Assembly (NCBI GenBank): GCA_029975475.1
Contig: JARKPB010000008.1
Coordinates: forward strand, 248,001 to 312,000
From: Anaerolineaceae bacterium
GTDB taxonomy: Bacteria; Chloroflexota; Anaerolineae; Anaerolineales; Anaerolineaceae
DNA length: 64,000 nucleotides
Direction of reading: 5' to 3'
Position numbers and translations under genes: made by a program. The notes under the pieces were generated by a model. That model saw only the letters and a program-made list of their open reading frames with translations, searched no databases and had not been told where the DNA came from. Below, piece after piece: positions 913-55,474 of this stretch (the first letter of the stretch is position 1; each line of letters starts with the position of its first letter).

Positions 913-3145
913 CCTTCGTCCGCATCAACAGGAGGTTGTCAATTTCAGCGGTGGGCGAATGGGCGTCGCCGCCGTGCCGGGCAGCGGAAAAACCCAGACC
1001 CTGTCTTACCTGGCAGCCCGCCTGATCGCTGATGGTCTGCTGGAAGAAGACCAGGAAGTTTTAATCGTTACCCTGGTCAATTCAGCGGTGGATAATTTTT
1101 CCAAACGCATCAAGGGGTTCGTTCAGGACGCGGGGCTGCTGCCCGGTCTGGGGTACCGCGTACGAACGCTGCACGGGCTGGCGCATGACATCGTCAGAGA
1201 ACGCCCGGACGTGGTCGGGTTATCCGGGCAATTTACCATTCTGGATGAGGCGGAGAGCGAGCAAATCACGCGCACCATCGCCGCCAGCTGGCTCAAACAG
1301 CACCCCGGGCTGGTGCAGGCTTATGCGAAAGATGAGTACGCGCTCTCGTCCGCCAGCCGGCAGGCCTGGGAAAAACTGGCGGTGGAACTCGGCATCGCTT
1401 TTATCCGCCAGGCTAAAGATTTGCAGTTCACTCCCCAGCGCCTGCGCGAAGCGCTGGCGGAAGCTCAAGTGGACGATGATTTGCTAAATGCCTGTCTGGA
1501 TTTTTATCGGGATTATCAGCAGGCACTGGATTACCGGGGAGCCCTCGATTATGACGATTTGATTCGTCTGGCGCTGCGCATCCTGGAAATTGACCCGGAT
1601 TATTTGCGAGCCCTGCGCAGACGCTGGCCGTTTATTCTGGAGGATGAAGCTCAGGACAGCAGCCGGCTTCAGGAAGAAATCCTCCGCCTTCTGGTCGGGG
1701 AGACTGGCGGATGGGTCAGGGTGGGGGACCCCAACCAGGCGATTTATGAAACCTTTACCACTGCCAGCCCGGAATACCTGCTGCGTTTTTTGCGCGAGCC
1801 GGGGGTTGTTTCGCTGACCCTGCCGAATTCGGGGCGCTCGGCGAAGCGCATTATCGATTTAGCCAATACCTTGGTTGAATGGGCGCGGCGGTCAGGCGAC
1901 CTGCATCCTTCCCTTCACACTGCGCTGGCGCACACCTACATCGAACCAACCCCGACGGGTGACCCGCAGCCAAACCCGCCTGATCGTGAAAATAACGTGA
2001 TTTTATATCTGGGTCAACCTTTGTCTCCGGAAAAAGAATTAGATTTGCTGGTGAAATCAGCAAAACGGTTTGTGGAGGAACATCCTGACGAAACCTGCGC
2101 GATCCTGGCGGCCACCAATCAACGCGGGGCGAGTATCTACGCGGAATTAAAAAAAATGGGGGTTCCGGCGCGGGAATTACTGCGTTCAAGCCAGGATACC
2201 CGCGCCGCGGCCGGTATTTTGCTGGCGGTCTTACAGGCGTTGAACCAGCCCAATGACCCAAAAAAAGTTCAGCACGCATTTAAGGCGGTCTATTTCCGCG
2301 CCGAACGGGAAGACAGCGCTCAAGAATCATTGGAACTTGCTTATCAAACGCTGGGTAAATGCAGCCAGGTCGAAGATTTTCTGGTGCCGGTCCCTGGCAG
2401 GGACTGGCTGGCAGCCCTGCAGACAAACGGCCTGGAAGACGCAGCGGCGGCCTGGCTGGATTCGTTTCGACAGACGTTTATTCGCTGGCAGAACGCTGTC
2501 TTGCTGCCAGTGGACCAGCTGATTCTAACCATTGCCCAGGAGTTATTTAGCCTGCCGGCGGAACTGGCGGTTGCGCATAAAATCGCGCTCAGTCTGGAAA
2601 GACTGGCGCAAACTCATCCAGACTGGGGCCTGGCGCAGTTTATTCAGGAATTGATTGAGATTGAGGCGAGCCGGCGTAAGTTTAGCGGGTTAAGCGAGGA
2701 TGACACCGGCTTCGACCCGGATGCGCATCCGGGCGAAGTGGTGGTCGCGACGATGCACAAAGCCAAGGGATTGGAATGGGACAAAGTCTACCTCACCTCG
2801 GTAAACAACTATGACTTCCCATCGGGCAGCGATGAAGATTTCTATCAGTCCGAACGGTATATTATCCGCGATCGATTAAACCTGGAAGCAGAGGTAACCG
2901 CCCGCCTCAAAGCGCTGGCCGAGCATGATCTGGCTGGCTTGCATCTTGAAGAAGGAGCTGCTACCCGCGCGGCCAGGCTGAATGTGGCTGGAGAAAGACT
3001 GCGCCTGTTGTACGTCGGCATCACCCGCGCCCGCAAAGAACTGGTGATTACCAGCAACACCGGGAGAAACGGCAGCTGCCGCCCGGCACTGATATTTTCG
3101 GGATTAAAAAATGAATGGGAAAGGCGCAATGGAACTTCCTCGTAA
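905..3145 (+). CDS. UvrD/Rep-type superfamily 1 DNA helicase
   Basis: 746 aa ATP-dependent 3'-5' type helicase. Visible motifs: Walker A AVPGSGKT at residues 23-30, preceded by a Q-motif-like LRPHQ; motif II EDEAQDSS near 245; motif III GDPNQAIYETF near 275; ATMHKAKGLEWDKVYL near 615 (motif V region); and RLLYVGITRARKEL near 700 (motif VI). The start is GTG, with GGAGG at 894-898 six bases upstream, overlapping the previous stop by 8 bp. The downstream nuclease overlaps this gene's 3' end. The pairing of a UvrD helicase with a RecB-like Fe-S nuclease suggests an AddAB-like repair unit or a defence helicase-nuclease; the sequence does not decide between them. Confidence 0.93.
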   Translation: MVNLRPHQQEVVNFSGGRMGVAAVPGSGKTQTLSYLAARLIADGLLEEDQEVLIVTLVNSAVDNFSKRIKGFVQDAGLLPGLGYRVRTLHGLAHDIVRERPDVVGLSGQFTILDEAESEQITRTIAASWLKQHPGLVQAYAKDEYALSSASRQAWEKLAVELGIAFIRQAKDLQFTPQRLREALAEAQVDDDLLNACLDFYRDYQQALDYRGALDYDDLIRLALRILEIDPDYLRALRRRWPFILEDEAQDSSRLQEEILRLLVGETGGWVRVGDPNQAIYETFTTASPEYLLRFLREPGVVSLTLPNSGRSAKRIIDLANTLVEWARRSGDLHPSLHTALAHTYIEPTPTGDPQPNPPDRENNVILYLGQPLSPEKELDLLVKSAKRFVEEHPDETCAILAATNQRGASIYAELKKMGVPARELLRSSQDTRAAAGILLAVLQALNQPNDPKKVQHAFKAVYFRAEREDSAQESLELAYQTLGKCSQVEDFLVPVPGRDWLAALQTNGLEDAAAAWLDSFRQTFIRWQNAVLLPVDQLILTIAQELFSLPAELAVAHKIALSLERLAQTHPDWGLAQFIQELIEIEASRRKFSGLSEDDTGFDPDAHPGEVVVATMHKAKGLEWDKVYLTSVNNYDFPSGSDEDFYQSERYIIRDRLNLEAEVTARLKALAEHDLAGLHLEEGAATRAARLNVAGERLRLLYVGITRARKELVITSNTGRNGSCRPALIFSGLKNEWERRNGTSS

Positions 3146-3959
3146 TTTTCGGTTTTCTCAAAACAACCTGCAGGATTATCTGGAATGTCCCCAGCGTTTC
3201 TTGCTGCGTCATGTGCGCCGCCTGGTCTGGCCGGCTGAAGAAAGCCGCCCGGTTCTGGAACAGGAAGCCCGTCTGGAACTTGGCATGCGCTTCCATCAAC
3301 TGGCTCAGCAGGCCGCTGCGGGCGTCCCGGCTGACTTGCTTTCCAGCCAGGTGGGCGGTGTTGAACCGCTGGGTGAATGGTGGAATCATCTGAACCAGTC
3401 CGGGGTGCTGCGAAACGGCGTTCGTCATTGGGCGGAACACGCCCTCACTGCGGTCTGGAAAGGTTATTCTTTTTTCGCGGTCTACGATCTGGTCAGCGCG
3501 GCGGAAGACGGCAGCTTTACCATCTATGACTGGAAGACCGCCGAGCGGCGCCCGCGCCGCGATGCTCTGGAGAGGCGCGTGCAGACTCGTCTGTACCGGT
3601 TTCTGTTTTGCCTGGCTGGCAGCTCCTTAAATAACGGACGGGCTGTACGTGCCGATCAGGTGCGCATGATTTACTGGTTTCCAAATTTTCCTGACGCGCC
3701 AGAAATATTTGACTATGACCTCGAAAAGCAGGCCGCTGACGGACTTTTTCTCGAGGAACTGATTGCTGAAATTGCCAGCCGCGAGGAAGTTGAATTTTAT
3801 AAAACAGTGGATGAATCTCGCTGCCGGTACTGCGTCTATCGTTCTTTCTGCGACCGCGGTCTGAGCGCAGGCGATCTGACCGCTGCGGATGAACCCGGCG
3901 AAGCGGAAGATCCGGATTTTTCTCTGGATTTTGAGCAGGTCGCCGAAATTGCCTTTTAA
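3129..3959 (+). CDS. PD-(D/E)XK nuclease with predicted 4Fe-4S cluster (RecB/Cas4/AddB-like)
   Basis: 276 aa. Seen: the opening 'FSQNNLQDYLECPQRF' with the lone N-terminal Cys, a nuclease core in which an Asp-containing strand (YDLVSA) is followed by 'YDWKTAERRP' (the D-x-K of PD-(D/E)XK), and a C-terminal Cys cluster CRYC-VYRSF-C. One N-terminal plus three C-terminal Cys is the known Fe-S layout of AddB, Cas4 and Dna2 nucleases. Two in-frame ATGs exist, at 3111 and 3129; I prefer 3129 because GGGAAAGG (3117-3124) precedes it. It overlaps the helicase gene by 17 bp. No cas genes are nearby, so a repair-type nuclease partner of the helicase is the favoured reading. Confidence 0.88.
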   Translation: MELPRNFRFSQNNLQDYLECPQRFLLRHVRRLVWPAEESRPVLEQEARLELGMRFHQLAQQAAAGVPADLLSSQVGGVEPLGEWWNHLNQSGVLRNGVRHWAEHALTAVWKGYSFFAVYDLVSAAEDGSFTIYDWKTAERRPRRDALERRVQTRLYRFLFCLAGSSLNNGRAVRADQVRMIYWFPNFPDAPEIFDYDLEKQAADGLFLEELIAEIASREEVEFYKTVDESRCRYCVYRSFCDRGLSAGDLTAADEPGEAEDPDFSLDFEQVAEIAF

Positions 3960-3991
3960 TCATCCTGCCCGGGCAGCGGTCGTTTCAATTG

Positions 3992-3997
3992 TATAAT
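3992..3997 (+). promoter_or_regulatory. -10 element 8 nt before a start codon
   Basis: TATAAT lies 8 nt upstream of ATG 4006. No convincing -35 is seen and there is no usable Shine-Dalgarno. The implied transcript starts at or within 1-2 bases of the ATG. Confidence 0.6.
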
Positions 3998-4005
3998 TCG
4001 GAAGC

Positions 4006-5508
4006 ATGAAGATTCACATCCTGCATCTGGAAGGACATGACGATCTGGCGGCTGCACGGGACAAGCTGAGTTTCAGTCATGCGCCGGTGACGCTGGTGGT
4101 CTGGCCCAGGCGCGGCAGGGTGTTGACCACCCGCCTGGAGCTGCTGCGTTTTGCCCGGTCGGCCGGGGAAGCCGGTACGCGGCTGATCTTTGTGACCCAT
4201 GATGAAGAAGTCCGCGAGCTGGCTGCGGATCTGGGTATTCCCGCGTTTTCAGACCTCGAAAGCGCGCGCCGCGTCCTTCCTGCCAGCCGTCGCATCTTGC
4301 CGCGCCGTTTTCGAGCTGCCCTGCTCGGTTATCAGGGATTGATTGAGCAGCGCAGGCAAATCCCAGCGCGAGATATATTTGTGGTGAAATCTCCCTGGTT
4401 AAGAGCGCTGATCTTCGCCGCTGCTGTATTTGCCATTCTGGTCATCGCCGCCCTGTTCATTCCCTCCGCCCGGGTTGTGTTGCCCATGCGAACTTCCTAC
4501 CAAAATTTGACCATTGAACTGCAGGCTTCTCCGGAATTTTCCACCCCGCAATTAAGCGGCGCGATTCCGGCGCACCCGGTGGTGGTGGTGGTCGAAGGTC
4601 AGGATGAGATCAAATCCCGGGGTGAAATTTTTGTGGCTGAAACATATGCCAGCGCGGAGATCGAGTTCACGAACCTGACCACCGGCGCGCTTGAGCTGCC
4701 GGCTGGCACAGTGGTTCGCACGCTGGATGACCCGCCTGTGCGGTTTTCAACCTTATACCCCGCGAAACTGGAAGCGCCCCTGAACAGTAAAGTCCGCGTT
4801 CCGGCGCGCGCCCTTGAACCGGGCAGCTCGGGCAATGTCCCCGCTGGAAGTCTGGTGGCCGTGGAAGGCGCGCAGGGGGCGCGGGTGCGGGCGACCAACC
4901 TGAGCGCGGCCAGCGGCGGCGGCGATCGGGCGTATCCCGCGCCGGGGAAAGAGGATTACGCGATTTTGAAAGCCAGGCTCCAGGCAGTTCTGGATAAAAG
5001 CGCCTTGAAAAATTTGCGGGAAACCCTCAAACCGGGCGAGATTCTTCTTGAGACCACGCTTCAAAAGAGCCGTCTGATCAAAGAGGATTTTTTCCCGGCT
5101 GAAGGCGAACCGGCGGATGTGCTGCGCCTGATCCTGCAGACCGAGTACACCGCCTGGGCTGTCTGGCAGCAAGACATTGAAGCAGTCGGCCGGATGGCGC
5201 TGGACGCGGTTCTTCCTGCGGGGAGCGCGGCGCTGGCGGACACCTTTGGCGTCATTCCGCTGGAAACAGCGCGCTGGACGGATGACGGCCAGCCCGCTCG
5301 CTGGAAGGTGTTTGTCAGCCGCACGATCCGGACGGATGTCTCTGAAGATCGGATCAATCAGGCATTGCTGGGAAAAACTGTCCCGCAGGCGCAGGCTTAT
5401 TTGAGCGGGCTGCCTGTAGCGGGGGCGCCGAAGATCGTGATGCAGCCTTCCTGGTGGTTTTGGCTGCCGGTATTACCATTTCGGGTCGCCGTGGAGGAGC
5501 AGCCGTGA
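4006..5508 (+). CDS. Baseplate J/gp47-like single-pass membrane protein
   Basis: 500 aa. An N-terminal soluble domain of about 125 residues ends in a positively charged stretch, followed by one clear transmembrane segment (about residues 132-152, Ala/Ile/Leu-rich) and a large extracytoplasmic part. The part after the membrane ('EIEFTNLTTGALELPAGTVV', a small beta domain, then 'GSSGNVPAG') resembles the baseplate assembly J/gp47 fold that is often annotated in Chloroflexi envelope proteins. No sheath, tube or other phage-tail gene is near, so this is not evidence for a contractile system. It is first in an operon with ruvX, mltG and ppgK. Function unknown; an envelope role is inferred. Confidence 0.6.
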   Translation: MKIHILHLEGHDDLAAARDKLSFSHAPVTLVVWPRRGRVLTTRLELLRFARSAGEAGTRLIFVTHDEEVRELAADLGIPAFSDLESARRVLPASRRILPRRFRAALLGYQGLIEQRRQIPARDIFVVKSPWLRALIFAAAVFAILVIAALFIPSARVVLPMRTSYQNLTIELQASPEFSTPQLSGAIPAHPVVVVVEGQDEIKSRGEIFVAETYASAEIEFTNLTTGALELPAGTVVRTLDDPPVRFSTLYPAKLEAPLNSKVRVPARALEPGSSGNVPAGSLVAVEGAQGARVRATNLSAASGGGDRAYPAPGKEDYAILKARLQAVLDKSALKNLRETLKPGEILLETTLQKSRLIKEDFFPAEGEPADVLRLILQTEYTAWAVWQQDIEAVGRMALDAVLPAGSAALADTFGVIPLETARWTDDGQPARWKVFVSRTIRTDVSEDRINQALLGKTVPQAQAYLSGLPVAGAPKIVMQPSWWFWLPVLPFRVAVEEQP

Positions 5509-17182: not shown

Positions 17183-18061
17183 GTGACGAACCTGCTCAAC
17201 GACATCCTTTTTATTTTTCAACGCCTGACATGGATCAGCGTGATTGACCTCGTCCTGGTTACGCTGGTGTTTTTTGGCCTGCTCCTGCTGCTGCGCGATA
17301 CCCAGGCCATGGCATTGCTGCGCGGGATCCTGTTCATCGTTATTTTTCTGACCCTGCTCACCAACTTAATTAACCTGCCCGCGTTTTCCTGGCTGGTAAC
17401 CACCTTTGTCCCGGCGCTGCTGCTGGCGATTCCGGTCATCTTTGCGCCTGAAATCCGCCGCGGCCTGGAACGGCTGGGGCGAACGGGAATCAGCACCCTG
17501 TTCGCCAGAAGGACAGCCAAGAGTCAGCAGGCGCTGCAGGAGACCATTCGGGCTGTCGTCACCGCCTGCGCGCGTTTGTCAGCCCGCCAGCACGGGGCTT
17601 TGATCGTTTTGCAGCGGGCGGATTCGCTGCTGGAATATGTTCGTACCGGTGTCCGTCTGGAATCGCATGTCACTCCTGAATTGCTGCTGCAGGTTTTTTA
17701 CCCCAACACACCGCTGCATGATGGAGCAGTGATCATCGGCGGCAACCGCCTGCTCGGAGCGGCCTGCGTCATGCCGCTTTCTTCCAGCGGGATTCTGACC
17801 CGATCGCCAGAACGGCAAATGGGCCTGCGCCACCGGGCTGCGCTGGGTATTTCGGAAGCCAGCGACGCGATCGCGGTCGTGGTATCAGAAGAAACCGGTT
17901 CGATCAGCATCGCCCATAACGGCCGCATGATCCGCCGCCTGGACAGCGACCGCCTGGAAAATGTGCTTCTGGCTTTCTACCAGCCCATGGAACTCGCCGG
18001 AAACGGCTCAAGTTTCTTCCGCTGGCTGCGCGGAAATAACAGCAGCCGGAGCGATGATTAA
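17183..18061 (+). CDS. cdaA: Diadenylate cyclase CdaA
   Basis: 292 aa membrane enzyme making c-di-AMP from two ATP. Seen: three N-terminal transmembrane helices (about residues 15-90), then the DAC domain with 'FYPNTPLHDGAVIIGGNRLL' (DGA motif) and LRHRAALGIS (RHR motif), and VVSEETGSISIAHNG. Both catalytic motifs are intact. The start is GTG 17183 with AGGA a few bases upstream. cdaR follows with an overlapping start, the usual cdaA-cdaR pairing. Confidence 0.95.
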   Translation: MTNLLNDILFIFQRLTWISVIDLVLVTLVFFGLLLLLRDTQAMALLRGILFIVIFLTLLTNLINLPAFSWLVTTFVPALLLAIPVIFAPEIRRGLERLGRTGISTLFARRTAKSQQALQETIRAVVTACARLSARQHGALIVLQRADSLLEYVRTGVRLESHVTPELLLQVFYPNTPLHDGAVIIGGNRLLGAACVMPLSSSGILTRSPERQMGLRHRAALGISEASDAIAVVVSEETGSISIAHNGRMIRRLDSDRLENVLLAFYQPMELAGNGSSFFRWLRGNNSSRSDD

Positions 18062-50538: not shown

Positions 50539-51690
50539 TTAGATGTCCTCTATCTCCCAGGGCGGGGTTCCGCTTCCACCCGCGCCTTGCAGGGAGGCGG
50601 TGATTGGCCCGGCCAGCTCCGGCAGCCGGCGGGCGATCCCGGCCAGCAGCCCAAAGCAGCCCGCGATCATCATATCCCCGAACGGCACGGCAAAGTAGGG
50701 CTTGAGGGAACTGCCGCGCAAAAGCGACCGGCGCGGACCGGTGACAACGACGTTGAAATCGGGCGCGTTCAAGGGGATTGGTGTGTGTTCGTAAACCAGC
50801 GCGCCGTGACCTTGGTGTTCAAACACATCTGCATGCGTCAGGCTGCCGTCAGCCAGCGCGGTTAATAAGGCTTCTAACGCGTTTCGATCCAGCAGCCCGG
50901 TGTGGTGTTCAAACACACCTTCAATCCCGCGCGGGCCCAGACGGAACGCCAGGGTGTGAAAGTTGCCCACGTTGGCGACCAACTTGCGGGATTTTGAGGC
51001 AACGAGCGGATCGTAACATGCGCCGATCACCGCCGCTGGGGCGGTATCCATCACCACCAGCGGAGCGGGCAGGGAGTCGGCGCTTCGCTCGACAGCCAGC
51101 AGGCGGGTCATAATCGGCGGGATATTTCCCGCGAGGTGCGCAAACCCGGTCAGGTCATTTTCCGCGCGGATGATTTGATCCAGGTAGTCAAAGCGGAACT
51201 GGCGGTCGGAAATGTCGGCCGGCGCAGCCCCGTGGTCAAAAACGGCAACGCCCACCGCTGCCAGGCTGCTTAAGGAAACCCCGTACTGCCGCAGGGTCCC
51301 GGCGATCAGGGCAAAGTCAAAATCGCGCAGCGCGACCGATCGTATATTGCGCGCCAGAGCGGCTGCTTCATCCTCGGAGACGATCTGAATGCCCATTTGC
51401 CGAACTTTTTCCAGATCGTCATCAAATGAGCGCGCCGCATCCGGCGTGGCGAAAACCGGCGCGCCGGATTTTATCAGCGCTTCAGCGCCCCAGGCGGAGG
51501 GACCTCCCCCCATGGTTACGCCGGTCAACACCACGGCTTCCTTGCGCCGGGCGGCTTCTTTCAGTGTTCGGTGAATGATCATGGTCGGAGACGGCAGCAC
51601 CAGCTTAAATCCGTTTTCCAGATCCACCCGCGAATCATACAGAAAGATGTCCTGGGTGCCGGTACCGACATCTACGGTCAATATTTTCAT
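50539..51690 (-). CDS. DUF1786-family protein
   Basis: 383 aa. The N-terminus MKILTVDVGTGTQDIFLYD resembles the phosphate-1 loop of actin/Hsp70-fold (ASKHA) proteins; later GVAVFDHGAAP and LVANVGNFHTLAFRLG look like further nucleotide-binding elements. The family is DUF1786, sometimes labelled pyruvate formate-lyase-activating-like without proof. Its ATG overlaps the stop of the P-II-like gene, itself coupled to the antiporter. Cytoplasmic; function unknown. Confidence 0.78.
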   Translation of the reverse strand: MKILTVDVGTGTQDIFLYDSRVDLENGFKLVLPSPTMIIHRTLKEAARRKEAVVLTGVTMGGGPSAWGAEALIKSGAPVFATPDAARSFDDDLEKVRQMGIQIVSEDEAAALARNIRSVALRDFDFALIAGTLRQYGVSLSSLAAVGVAVFDHGAAPADISDRQFRFDYLDQIIRAENDLTGFAHLAGNIPPIMTRLLAVERSADSLPAPLVVMDTAPAAVIGACYDPLVASKSRKLVANVGNFHTLAFRLGPRGIEGVFEHHTGLLDRNALEALLTALADGSLTHADVFEHQGHGALVYEHTPIPLNAPDFNVVVTGPRRSLLRGSSLKPYFAVPFGDMMIAGCFGLLAGIARRLPELAGPITASLQGAGGSGTPPWEIEDI

Positions 51691-52052
51691 GATTCGATAT
51701 CTCGACGGTTTAAACCATAGACCGCATAAGCAGGCAGCACAATCATGATCCCGGTATTGGGGCTGTCCAGCGGCCCGGTGATCGCCTCGGTTGCCATGCG
51801 GATGCGTTCCACCATGTCTTCACCATCCACGACGGTAAAGAGCGTCCGGTTGGTATCCTGAACGTGTTCCATGATATCTTCCAGACTCGGAATAAGCGGC
51901 AGGTCTTCAGCCAGCCCCCCGCGGTGGCGCAGCCGCGCCATACCGGTGCTGGGCAGGATGGTTACCCCTTTAACTCCGCTTTCCTCCCAGGCGCTTAAGA
52001 GCGGATCCAGTGCGGCGGTATTATGCAGTACCATCAAAACCAGGTAATTCAT
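51687..52052 (-). CDS. P-II-like (GlnB-fold) protein
   Basis: 121 aa. The beta-alpha-beta start MNYLVLMVLHNTAALDPLLSAWEESGVKGVTIL with a second strand TLFTVVDGEDMVERIRMATEAI and 'NTGIMIVLPAYAVYGL' is the ferredoxin-like trimer fold of P-II-related regulators. No uridylylation Tyr loop is seen, so it is not a nitrogen P-II. It overlaps both neighbours by 4 bp. A role as ligand-responsive partner of the antiporter is inferred from context. Confidence 0.75.
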   Translation of the reverse strand: MNYLVLMVLHNTAALDPLLSAWEESGVKGVTILPSTGMARLRHRGGLAEDLPLIPSLEDIMEHVQDTNRTLFTVVDGEDMVERIRMATEAITGPLDSPNTGIMIVLPAYAVYGLNRRDIES

Positions 52053-53269
52053 TCAACCTCCGAGATTCGTTGAGGCGGTTGGGGTTTGGAAGAACGAAGC
52101 GACGCGCGCAACATTGGCGGAGTGATCAGCGTTGAGATCAACACAACTCCGATAATTATCCCAAAAATTTCATTAGACAACAGTCCCTGATCCAGGCCAA
52201 CTTTGGCAACAATCAGCCCCACTTCGCCGCGAGATACCATGCCAATCCCGATCTGCAGGGATTCGCGCCAGCTCAAGCGCCCCAGTCTGGCGCCCAATCC
52301 CGCGCCGAGGATCTTTCCCAGAACGGCGACCAGACCCAGGCCAGCCAGCAGCCACAGGCTGGAGAGATTGAAACTGCCCAGATCAACGCTCAAACCAATA
52401 TTGACGAAGAAGATGGGGACAAAAAAAGCGTACCCCAGCGACCGAAACCCCGGATCAATAATAGATTTTTCCGGCGTGCGCGAGAAGAATAAGCCGGCCA
52501 TAAATGTTCCCGTGATGGCTGCCATACCGCCGAGCATTTCAGCGCTGATGCCGTAGACAATCATAATGATTAATGCCAGGGTGGTGCTGCCCTGACTGAT
52601 CGGCAGGCGGCTGACCCGCCGCGATACTGCGGGGAGCACGAAAAAGCCAAATGCGGCGGAAAGGTTGAGGAACAACACCATCTTCACCAGCACAACCGCC
52701 ACAGCGCCCAGGCCGCTGCCTCCTCCTTCAATCGCCAGGAAGGTAGAGAGCAGTAAAATGACCAGGATATCGTCAAAAACCGCTGCTCCCAGCAGCCCGA
52801 GACCGATTCGGCTGCGCAGAACTTTTAATTCCATCAAAACCTGGGCTGAAATGCTCACGCTGGTCGCGCCGAGAGTCAAACCGAGGAAAATCGCGTGATT
52901 GACGGGCATTCTGGTCAGAATGCCGGCGAAAAATCCCAGACCAACCGGCATCAGCACGCCCAGCGTACCCGCATAGGCGGCCACCCGCGTGTTTTGCCGC
53001 AAATCGGACATGTGCAGTTCCAGACCGGCCAGGAACATCAGCAAGAGGACGCCCAGCTCGCCAATCTCCGCGATGATTTCAGGCAGGTGAAGATCGGTGA
53101 TGAAGTTGAGGTGCGTCAGATCAATCAGAGTCGGGCCGAGGACAATCCCGACGATTAATTCGCCCAGTACCGAAGGTTGGCCGATGAGCGTGCTCAAATA
53201 CCCGGCGGTTTTTGCCGTGATGAGAATAATTCCGATGACCAGAGCAAGTTGAAGAAAAGGTGTCAGCAT
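52049..53269 (-). CDS. CPA2-type cation:proton antiporter
   Basis: 406 aa, 12-13 hydrophobic helices. Seen: 'AGYLSTLIGQPSVLGELIVGIVLGPTL' start, ELGVLLLMFLAGLELHMSDL, 'GLTLGATSVSISAQVLMEL' and GLLGAAVFDDILVILLLS, where the adjacent Asp pair in FDD corresponds to the transport site of KefB/NapA-type antiporters; MVSRGEVGLIVA follows. There is no RCK/TrkA-N domain, unlike KefB. ATG 53269 is preferred; TTG 53278 is an in-frame alternative. It is the first gene of the antiporter/P-II-like/DUF1786 operon. Ion (K+ or Na+) is uncertain. Confidence 0.87.
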   Translation of the reverse strand: MLTPFLQLALVIGIILITAKTAGYLSTLIGQPSVLGELIVGIVLGPTLIDLTHLNFITDLHLPEIIAEIGELGVLLLMFLAGLELHMSDLRQNTRVAAYAGTLGVLMPVGLGFFAGILTRMPVNHAIFLGLTLGATSVSISAQVLMELKVLRSRIGLGLLGAAVFDDILVILLLSTFLAIEGGGSGLGAVAVVLVKMVLFLNLSAAFGFFVLPAVSRRVSRLPISQGSTTLALIIMIVYGISAEMLGGMAAITGTFMAGLFFSRTPEKSIIDPGFRSLGYAFFVPIFFVNIGLSVDLGSFNLSSLWLLAGLGLVAVLGKILGAGLGARLGRLSWRESLQIGIGMVSRGEVGLIVAKVGLDQGLLSNEIFGIIIGVVLISTLITPPMLRASLRSSKPQPPQRISEVE

Positions 53270-53361
53270 GGCAGCCAATCCGGACAGCGATGAAAAATGA
53301 CAGGATGGATGTCAAAGTTTACCATAAAAATATTCACTGTCAGATGGCCGCCCTGTTCGAG

Positions 53362-53367
53362 TATACT
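53362..53367 (+). promoter_or_regulatory. -10 element of mutase/epimerase operon
   Basis: TATACT, 28 nt before ATG 53396. The leader contains GGAGAGGG. Confidence 0.5.
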
Positions 53368-53395
53368 TGTGTTAATCTTCACTGGAGAGGGACCT

Positions 53396-55045
53396 ATGAG
53401 ATTTGAGGCTGAGAAGAATCAGTGGGAAGAGAAAATCTTAAACCCCGCGATTAAGAAAAACCCCGAACGAAAGGCGGAATTTAAAACCCCATCGGGTATC
53501 CCGGTACCCCGCGTCGCCCTGCCGGGTGAAACGGATTATCTTGAAGATCTTGGTTTCCCGGGGGAATATCCCTTTACCCGCGGCGTCCAGCCCACGATGT
53601 ACCGCGGCCGTTTCTGGACCATGCGCCAGTACGCCGGTTTCGCCACCGCGGAAGAATCCAACCGCCGTTACCGGTATTTACTGGAGCAGGGGCAGACCGG
53701 TCTGTCGGTCGCCTTTGACTTGCCCACCCAGATCGGTTACGACGCGGATGACCCGATGGCAGCGGGCGAGGTTGGCAAAGTCGGCGTTTCAATTTCCTCT
53801 TTGCGAGATATGGAAACCCTCTTTCAAGGTATCCCGCTGGATAAGGTCAGCACCAGTATGACCATCAACGCTCCGGCCGCGGTGCTGCTGGCGATGTATA
53901 TCGCGGTCGCCCGCCGGCAGGGCGTTGAAGAGAAAAATTTGCGCGGCACCATCCAGAATGATATTCTCAAAGAATATGTGGCCCGCGGAACCTATATCTT
54001 CCCCCCCGGGCCTTCGATGCGTCTGATTACCGATATTTTCCAGTACTGCTATCAGAACGTGCCGAACTGGAACACGATCAGCATTTCCGGTTACCATATT
54101 CGCGAAGCTGGTTCAACCGCGGTGCAAGAAGTGGCTTTTACCCTGGCAGATGCGATCGCCTACGTTGAAACGGCGGTCAAGGCGGGCTTGAAGGTGGATG
54201 AATTCGCCCCTCAACTCAGCTTTTTCTTCAACGCGCACAACAATCTGTTTGAGGAAGTGGCAAAATTCCGCGCTGCCCGCCGCCTGTGGGCTGAAATCAT
54301 GCGCGATCGCTTCCAAGCCAAAGACCCGCGCTCGATGATGCTGCGTTTTCACACCCAGACCGCCGGTTCCACGTTGACCGCCCAGCAGCCGGAAAACAAT
54401 ATCGTCCGGGTCGCCCTGCAGGCTCTCAGCGCGGTGTTGGGCGGGACTCAATCGCTGCATACCAACAGCATGGATGAAGCCCTCTGGCTGCCAACTGAAA
54501 AATCGGTGCGCGTGGCGTTGCGCACCCAGCAGGTCATCGCGTATGAATCCGGGGTCGCCGATTCGGTCGATCCGCTGGCCGGGTCTTATCTGGTGGAATA
54601 CCTTACAGATGAAATCACCCGCCAGGCTCGGGATTACATCCAGAAAATTGATGAAATGGGCGGCGCGATGGAAGCGATCGAGCGCGGCTACATTCAGGCG
54701 GAAATTCAGGAAGCCGCCTATCAATATCAAAAAGCGGTTGAAAAGAAAGAACAGGTGGTGGTTGGGGTCAACCAGTTCCAGATCGAAGAAAAGCTTGAAC
54801 TGGAACGCCTCAAAGTCGACCCCAGCATTGAGGAGAACGCGCGAGAGCGGCTGGCGCAGCTGCGTGCCAGCCGGGATGCCGAAAAGGCTGCCGGGTGGCT
54901 GGAAAAGCTGGAAACAGCGGCTCGCGGCAGCGAGAACATCATGCCGGTTTTAATCGGCTGTGTGGAAAATGATCTGACCCTGGGCGAGGTCTGCAATGTG
55001 CTGCGCAAAACCTGGGGCGAATACACCGCCCCGTCCTGGGCTTAG
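53396..55045 (+). CDS. Methylmalonyl-CoA mutase large subunit, catalytic chain without B12 domain
   Basis: 549 aa. Interconverts methylmalonyl-CoA and succinyl-CoA. Seen: [67 protein letters not shown] and '[21 protein letters not shown]', the substrate-binding barrel of the family. The C-terminal cobalamin-binding domain (DxHxxG) is absent, as in archaeal and some bacterial two-subunit mutases; the B12 subunit is not in the window. ATG 53396 has GGAGAGGG upstream. The epimerase follows in the same operon. Confidence 0.93.
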
Positions 55046-55066
55046 AACGATCAAGGGAGCGAGACA

Positions 55067-55474
55067 ATGGCAAAAATCAAAAAAATCAATCATGTCGCAG
55101 TGGCTGTCGCCGACCTGGATGCTTCGCTGGCTTTCTGGCGGGATGCCATGGGAATCGAGCTGCATCATGTAGAAGATGTGCCCAGCCAAAAAGCCGCGGT
55201 CGCATTTTTACCGGTGGGAGAAAGCGAAGTGGAACTGGTCAAACCGACCAGTGATGATTCTGGACTGGCGAAATTTGTGGCGGAAAAAGGCGGCGGGCTG
55301 CACCACCTCTGTTTTGAAGTGGATCATATTGACGAGATGCTGGAGGAGCTCAAGTCCAAAGGGGTACGCTTGATTGACGAAACCGCCAGAACTCTCCCGG
55401 GCCGCAAGATGGCTTTTGTCCATCCCAAATCTACCGGCGGTGTGCTGGTTGAGCTTTACGAAATTACTGAATAA
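55067..55474 (+). CDS. mce: Methylmalonyl-CoA epimerase
   Basis: 135 aa vicinal-oxygen-chelate fold. Interconverts the (R) and (S) forms of methylmalonyl-CoA. Seen: KKINHVAVAVADLDASLAFW with metal His, ESEVELVKPTSDDS with a Glu ligand, GGGLHHLCFEVDHID with the second His, and 'STGGVLVELYEI' with the last Glu. AAGGGAG precedes the ATG. Next to the mutase, as expected for the propionate route. Confidence 0.95.
   Translation: MAKIKKINHVAVAVADLDASLAFWRDAMGIELHHVEDVPSQKAAVAFLPVGESEVELVKPTSDDSGLAKFVAEKGGGLHHLCFEVDHIDEMLEELKSKGVRLIDETARTLPGRKMAFVHPKSTGGVLVELYEITE

Follow-up and report, generated by a model that had tools for sequence, protein, structure and literature searches.

A P-II-like protein family encoded beside three families of cation transporters in Chloroflexota, with a putative role in their gating

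Three tightly packed genes of an Anaerolineaceae bacterium raise the question of whether a cation:proton antiporter, a small P-II-like protein and a protein of the DUF1786 family constitute a single regulated transport system. The genes lie on the minus strand of a 64,000-nucleotide stretch of DNA (positions 248,001 to 312,000 of contig JARKPB010000008.1, assembly GCA_029975475.1; hereafter, the window), and their coordinates and ATGA overlaps agree with those of a first-pass annotation of the same DNA. The gene encoding the 406-aa CPA2-type antiporter (52049..53269, with an ATG start and a TTG 9 nt further out) shares the 4 nt of its stop (52049..52052) with the start of the gene encoding the 121-aa P-II-like protein (51687..52052), which in turn overlaps by 4 nt (51687..51690) the start of the DUF1786 gene (50539..51690). 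Comparative analysis shows that the conserved unit is the pair of CPA2 antiporter and P-II-like protein, not the trio. Our favoured explanation, which we consider reasonably probable, is that the two act together as a transporter and its regulator, the latter being a member of a family that gates cation antiporters via class-specific T-loops.

Gene pairing and class-specific T-loops

A scan of GTDB genomes using antiporter-linked P-II-like proteins as queries identified 128 relatives, 80 of which were kept. All 80 come from organisms recorded as Chloroflexota or Anaerolineae-type, and the isolates Longilinea arvoryzae, Bellilinea caldifistulae and Anaerolinea thermolimosa are among them. In 79 of these loci the antiporter gene immediately precedes the P-II-like gene on the same strand, and at the only exception (L148) the P-II-like gene starts 60 bases from a contig end. 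Across the 79 loci the median gap between both genes is 15 nt, with the genes touching or overlapping in 24 and sharing 4 nt in 11; a gap value of 450 nt at L118 is an artefact of a broken antiporter frame. An apparent natural fusion of antiporter and P-II-like protein in a single frame (L256 of genome G324, 2894-4462) was not used as evidence because it contains unknown bases and an apparent frameshift at the P-II start, and its single frame is probably a sequencing error. At L145 and L158, a system composed of a CitMHS carrier and a P-II-like protein fused to CBS domains lies directly upstream of the antiporter/P-II-like pair.

Using the window protein as query, a class-level search of 199 genomes returned 129 places in 95 genomes. 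We examined 121 of these loci, leaving out 8, and obtained 124 domain hits that, after removal of 3 repeats, represent 121 distinct domains. A same-strand transporter adjoins 118 of them, and it belongs to one of three families: CPA2 (67), CaCA (27) or CitMHS/ArsB/NhaD-type (24). The CPA2 antiporter is encoded upstream of the P-II-like gene in 65 cases and downstream in 2, and the CaCA (Na_Ca_ex) exchanger is encoded downstream in its 27 cases. The 24 domains of the third group form the N-terminal part of a CBS-domain protein followed by the carrier gene, and a CBS-type match also occurs just behind 2 of the 65 CPA2-linked domains. A phylum-level search added 13 domains, of which 9 adjoin a CPA2 antiporter, 3 a CaCA exchanger and 1 (L209) no such partner. 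The first-pass annotation had named the CPA2 antiporter as partner but had overlooked the other two transporter families as well as the fusion to CBS domains.

Within the fetched class loci, 97 transporters were found near a P-II-like gene, compared to 1 in the 292,620 bases lying more than 2.5 kb away. The source genome encodes only 3 CPA-type, 3 CitMHS and 2 CaCA proteins in 3.15 Mb, so that such transporters would make up about half a percent of random neighbours (assuming 2,900 genes), and both of its P-II-like copies are paired. Because these transporters cluster near P-II-like genes and are few genome-wide, chance is excluded as an explanation of the pairing. The second copy of the source genome (contig C16; L062, 3895-4350, minus strand) overlaps or nearly touches a Na_Ca_ex exchanger gene (2925-3893, minus strand). 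At L068 (3667-6770), a CBS protein, a CitMHS carrier, a CaCA-type P-II-like protein and a CaCA exchanger are encoded in a row.

Beyond Chloroflexota, the plasmid collection yielded a single case, a Subdoligranulum (Bacillota) plasmid on which the P-II-like gene precedes that of a Na_H_Exchanger protein. This order is the reverse of the Chloroflexota CPA2 pair, and three divergent Chloroflexota P-II-like copies likewise precede their antiporter. The CBS-fused protein produced no match as a query against the same collection.

The T-loop region of the window protein (residues 38-68; 51849..51941, minus strand) is predicted with low confidence and its sequence is specific to its class. The T-loop consensus is ..RDDLPLMPSL..E..hhRTLFtVV for the CPA2 class, ..Rr....p.rf.F....e.ghyTLfAiV for the CaCA class and gYRA.tWL.r.GLgaL.rlFe.eE..rrRTlLavi for the CitMHS class. 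Between these three main classes, mean identity amounts to 0.12-0.17 for T-loops, as against 0.33-0.38 for the core; within them, the respective T-loop and core values are 0.37 and 0.42 (CPA2), 0.22 and 0.46 (CaCA), and 0.46 and 0.53 (CitMHS). On a tree inferred from the core only, with T-loop columns removed, the partner label requires 10 changes, versus a mean of 54.6 for shuffled labels, none of 200 shuffles being as low, and it requires 9 changes when the T-loop is included. The anatomy of these sequences points to partner-specific T-loops set on a common core. T-loops of the CaCA type are also present at L209 (4988-5347) and L262 (4500-4874), where no exchanger is adjacent.

The proteins of the locus

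The window P-II-like protein scores 13.3 bits (E 0.11) against the Pfam P-II model, below its gathering cut-off of 25 bits, and neither the Pfam nor the NCBIfam library includes a model for the family. Among 30 family members, however, 26 match PF00543 (considering E values up to 10; best 8.2e-7), compared to only 2 matching DUF190 (best E 0.061), and a family profile searched against the PDB ranks P-II and GlnK chains first, with E values from 0.0011. The AlphaFold2 monomer model (mean pLDDT 81.1, 94-98 in the core blocks, with a poorly ordered T-loop) adopts the beta-alpha-beta-beta-alpha-beta, ferredoxin-like fold of P-II proteins. Its best structural match is 2v5h (Z 12.8, rmsd 2.6, 86 aligned residues), and all 50 matches listed in each of two structure comparisons are P-II-superfamily proteins by title. 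Since 26 of 30 relatives match PF00543 and the predicted model has a P-II fold, we consider the P-II assignment, as originally proposed, to be right in spite of the sub-threshold Pfam score.

The window antiporter matches Na_H_Exchanger (PF00999) over residues 17-388 (E 4.6e-61) and ends shortly after this membrane domain, with no RCK or TrkA domain detected behind it by Pfam, as had been noted from its sequence; its score against TIGR00932 of NCBIfam (168.5 bits) falls below the cut-off of 238.3. Asp166-Asp167 (52769..52774, minus strand), which we take to be the ion-binding pair as in NapA/NhaA-type exchangers, and Lys319 (52313..52315, minus strand), which we liken to the NapA/NhaA lysine, are conserved without exception in 38 P-II-linked antiporters. 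Going by these residue roles, the sequences suggest that the linked CPA2 proteins are electrogenic Na+/H+ exchangers of the NapA kind rather than K+ exporters. A TrkA/RCK domain was found in none of the 38 P-II-linked CPA2 antiporters, and a TrkA domain in none of 24 linked CitMHS proteins, whereas among other carriers of the source genome TrkA is present in 1 of 2 CPA-type and 2 of 3 CitMHS proteins. Thus, the P-II-like protein probably does for its transporter what TrkA/RCK domains do elsewhere. Relative to CPA2 antiporters bearing TrkA/RCK domains, the membrane domain family is the same and the regulatory part is here a separate P-II-like protein. The proposal that a P-II-fold protein is dedicated to an RCK-less CPA2 antiporter therefore gains support from context, both from the 79 of 80 paired loci and from these domain counts.

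The third gene of the window encodes a DUF1786 protein (PF08735; E 5.6e-71, 239 bits against a cut-off of 25). Its AlphaFold2 model (pLDDT 85.8) has an ASKHA fold, as had been guessed from its sequence, with Z scores of 13.8 to 3djc and 13.7 to FtsA (1e4g); Foldseek TM-scores are low (0.2-0.35), and a PDB sequence search with this protein gave no match. The first-pass annotation had placed it within a three-gene system, in which DUF1786 would make, remove or use the ligand of the P-II-like protein. This reading is favoured by the overlap in the window, by the ASKHA fold and by the 7 of 80 loci in which DUF1786 is directly linked, those of L. arvoryzae and A. thermolimosa included; the pair, however, occurs without DUF1786 in the remaining loci, and 20 loci around unlinked DUF1786 genes have no neighbour family common to more than a few. 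Furthermore, 301 genomes were compared, with only hits at E values of at most 1e-10 counted as P-II-like genes and weaker ones left out. DUF1786 occurs in 8 of the 27 genomes possessing such a gene and in 75 of the 274 lacking it (Fisher p 0.82), so that both occur independently. In the four trio loci that were checked, the flanking genes on both sides are conserved too, which places the trio in a larger region of synteny shared by Anaerolineaceae-type genomes; because mutase and epimerase-size neighbours are kept in the same region, synteny explains the linkage. The trio was hence rejected as a unit, a single three-gene system appears highly improbable, and we judge DUF1786 to be a lineage-specific companion outside the conserved system.

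A divergent gene and its neighbour (window 53297-55474), presumably of methylmalonyl-CoA mutase type and of glyoxalase/epimerase size, are retained beside the trio in other Anaerolineaceae-type genomes. A promoter scan returned 7 sites versus 1.3 expected, one of them before the antiporter (53343-53316, minus strand); this is no evidence of function. None of the antiporter, P-II-like and DUF1786 proteins matched a phage-defence library.

Ligand and mode of control

The best reading of these data is that each family member is dedicated to one secondary cation transporter, be it CPA2 (NapA-like), CaCA or, in its CBS-fused form, CitMHS/ArsB/NhaD-type. In the mechanism that we propose, for which we infer a trimeric P-II-like protein, its physical binding to the transporter and a direction of control, the P-II-like core would bind a small ligand at the subunit cleft. 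This ligand would be an adenine nucleotide reporting the energy state, with chances that we put at about even. Ligand binding would order the T-loop, and the ordered T-loop would dock onto the cognate transporter from the cytoplasmic side or enter its cytoplasmic cleft, holding it in one state by analogy with GlnK-AmtB and SbtB-SbtA; the P-II-like protein would in this manner replace the TrkA/RCK domains borne by other antiporters of the same genome. For SbtB, the T-loop has been described to insert into the inter-domain cleft of SbtA (PMC8352866).

Several observations weigh against this explanation. TGxxGDGKI, the ATP-binding B-loop motif of canonical P-II proteins (PMC4316997), is found in none of 135 family members, so that nucleotide binding cannot be assumed; in the window protein its place is taken by GPLDSPNTG (residues 93-101; 51750..51776, minus strand), and an alternative loop, G-x-[LF]-x-x-P-x-[TS]-G, is common to all classes. 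In a profile alignment, the position of Gln39, which has a role in canonical P-II proteins (PMC4316997), is occupied by Leu in the family consensus, and that of Arg38 by Arg. Near copies raise the clustering of partner labels on the core tree, in which many forks are not resolved, and the RCK comparison draws on few controls. Trimeric transporters are the textbook targets of P-II proteins, and a review states that control by P-II seems confined to transporters able to form trimers. Carriers of the CPA2, DASS and CaCA types, by contrast, are dimeric or monomeric, and the resulting symmetry mismatch needs explaining. Finally, 3 of the 121 domains lack a partner within 700 nt (L066, L233 and L262), although L233 has an antiporter on the same strand 770 nt away, and L209 of the phylum set has no adjacent partner.

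The few orphan copies (L066, L209 and L262) would fit a P-II-like gene that is merely co-transcribed with the transporter and whose product works elsewhere in the cell. Such an arrangement accords poorly with a pairing that involves three transporter families unrelated to one another, with T-loops particular to each class and with the fusion of one class to CBS domains beside its carrier, and we regard it as very unlikely.

A different reading dispenses with nucleotides: the P-II-like protein would sense the transported ion or a metal, in the manner of CutA or PII-NG, and act on the transporter or on expression. CBS domains are associated with adenine nucleotides, and the CBS fusion of the CitMHS class points towards these rather than to an ion; the window protein contains no cysteine, and no set of metal-binding residues was seen, no test having been aimed at one. 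Each of the three partner families, however, transports cations or solutes coupled to them, the P-II-like family lacks the ATP motif, and PII-NG, which clusters with the CzcABC proton/cation antiporter, has been discussed as a metal sensor (PMC7726332). On balance, we find an ion sensor unlikely.

The first-pass annotation had put forward c-di-AMP as a candidate ligand, which would turn the P-II-like protein into a c-di-AMP receptor controlling the antiporter. The window does encode a c-di-AMP cyclase, as stated there (diadenylate cyclase domain at 17561-17926, within an ORF at 17183-18061), and the predicted structure closely resembles that of PstA (4d3g; Z 11.5, rmsd 2.0, 78 aligned residues). 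A cyclase is found in 11 of 14 control genomes, however, so that its presence says little. Neither the PstA c-di-AMP motif, TKLxxxGGFLxxGNTT (PMC4316997), nor its GGFL segment occurs in any of the 135 family members. The source genome furthermore carries separate, tandem CdAMP_rec (PstA-type) genes (L216, 4097-4438 and 4441-4707; contig C18, near 955,100-955,710), the second of them shortened to 88 aa. As for the absence of motifs, SbtB reportedly lacks both TGxxGDGKI and the PstA motif. SbtB, itself P-II-like, binds AMP, ADP, ATP, cAMP and c-di-AMP (PMC10117731), and hence such ligands can be bound without either motif. Altogether, c-di-AMP is not favoured and seems to us an improbable ligand.

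The transporter/regulator explanation can be extended, more tentatively and with slightly less than even confidence, to a single P-II-like family acting as a portable switch, recruited to three unrelated, non-trimeric families of cation transporters with its T-loop re-fitted to each and, once, as a CBS-fused variant. If true, P-II control would here extend for the first time to antiporters that are dimers or monomers, and the RCK domain would have a soluble counterpart. Such a family would break the trimeric-transporter rule for P-II proteins and explain the control of RCK-less antiporters in a large group of uncultured anaerobes, and its natural T-loop variants would allow tests of how a P-II protein picks its transporter.

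Comparison with known systems

Membership in the established P-II groups was assessed on motifs. Canonical P-II proteins (GlnB/GlnK) were rejected given the absence of TGxxGDGKI from all 135 members, and PstA/CdAMP_rec proteins given the equal absence of the c-di-AMP motif. With PstA/DarA and CdAMP_rec (PF06153) the family shares a P-II-like fold (4d3g, Z 11.5), and it differs from them in this motif and in coexisting with true CdAMP_rec genes elsewhere in the genome. DUF190 (PF02641) proteins resemble the CBS-fused members in joining a small P-II-related domain to CBS domains, but they define a separate Pfam family. The source genome encodes one such protein (L194, 559-1875, minus strand, contig C3), of 439 aa with DUF190 and four CBS matches.

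PII-NG (Sant'Anna 2009, as discussed in PMC7726332) is likewise encoded with a proton/cation antiporter. That partner, CzcABC, is an RND metal pump, as opposed to the CPA2, CaCA and CitMHS proteins found here, and PII-NG is set apart from the present family by its description only. No RND pump of this kind was seen among the linked partners, for which only antiporter, CitMHS and CaCA profiles were searched.

Further parallels are found in GlnK/AmtB and SbtB/SbtA. The former shares with the present pair a P-II fold (2ns1, Z 11.8), a conserved gene pairing and, presumably, control through the T-loop. It differs in its partner, an ammonium channel, and from a family in which TGxxGDGKI is missing (0 of 135) and Leu replaces Gln39 in the consensus. 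Cyanobacterial SbtB shares the P-II fold (6mmq, Z 11.7), a gene location beside a secondary transporter and the lack of a canonical nitrogen role. Its partner, however, is a trimeric bicarbonate symporter, and no SbtA was found among the neighbours of the present family, which are CPA2, CaCA or CitMHS proteins. The window protein also lacks the CGPxGC R-loop, conserved in some SbtB only, because it has no cysteine.

In a literature that left out most subscription journals and all preprints, no earlier account was found of the family or of an association between P-II-like genes and CPA2, CaCA or CitMHS transporters. What is known is the control of a neighbouring transporter by a P-II-like protein, as in GlnK-AmtB and SbtB-SbtA; what appears to be new is a P-II-like family whose partners are CPA2, CaCA and CitMHS transporters.

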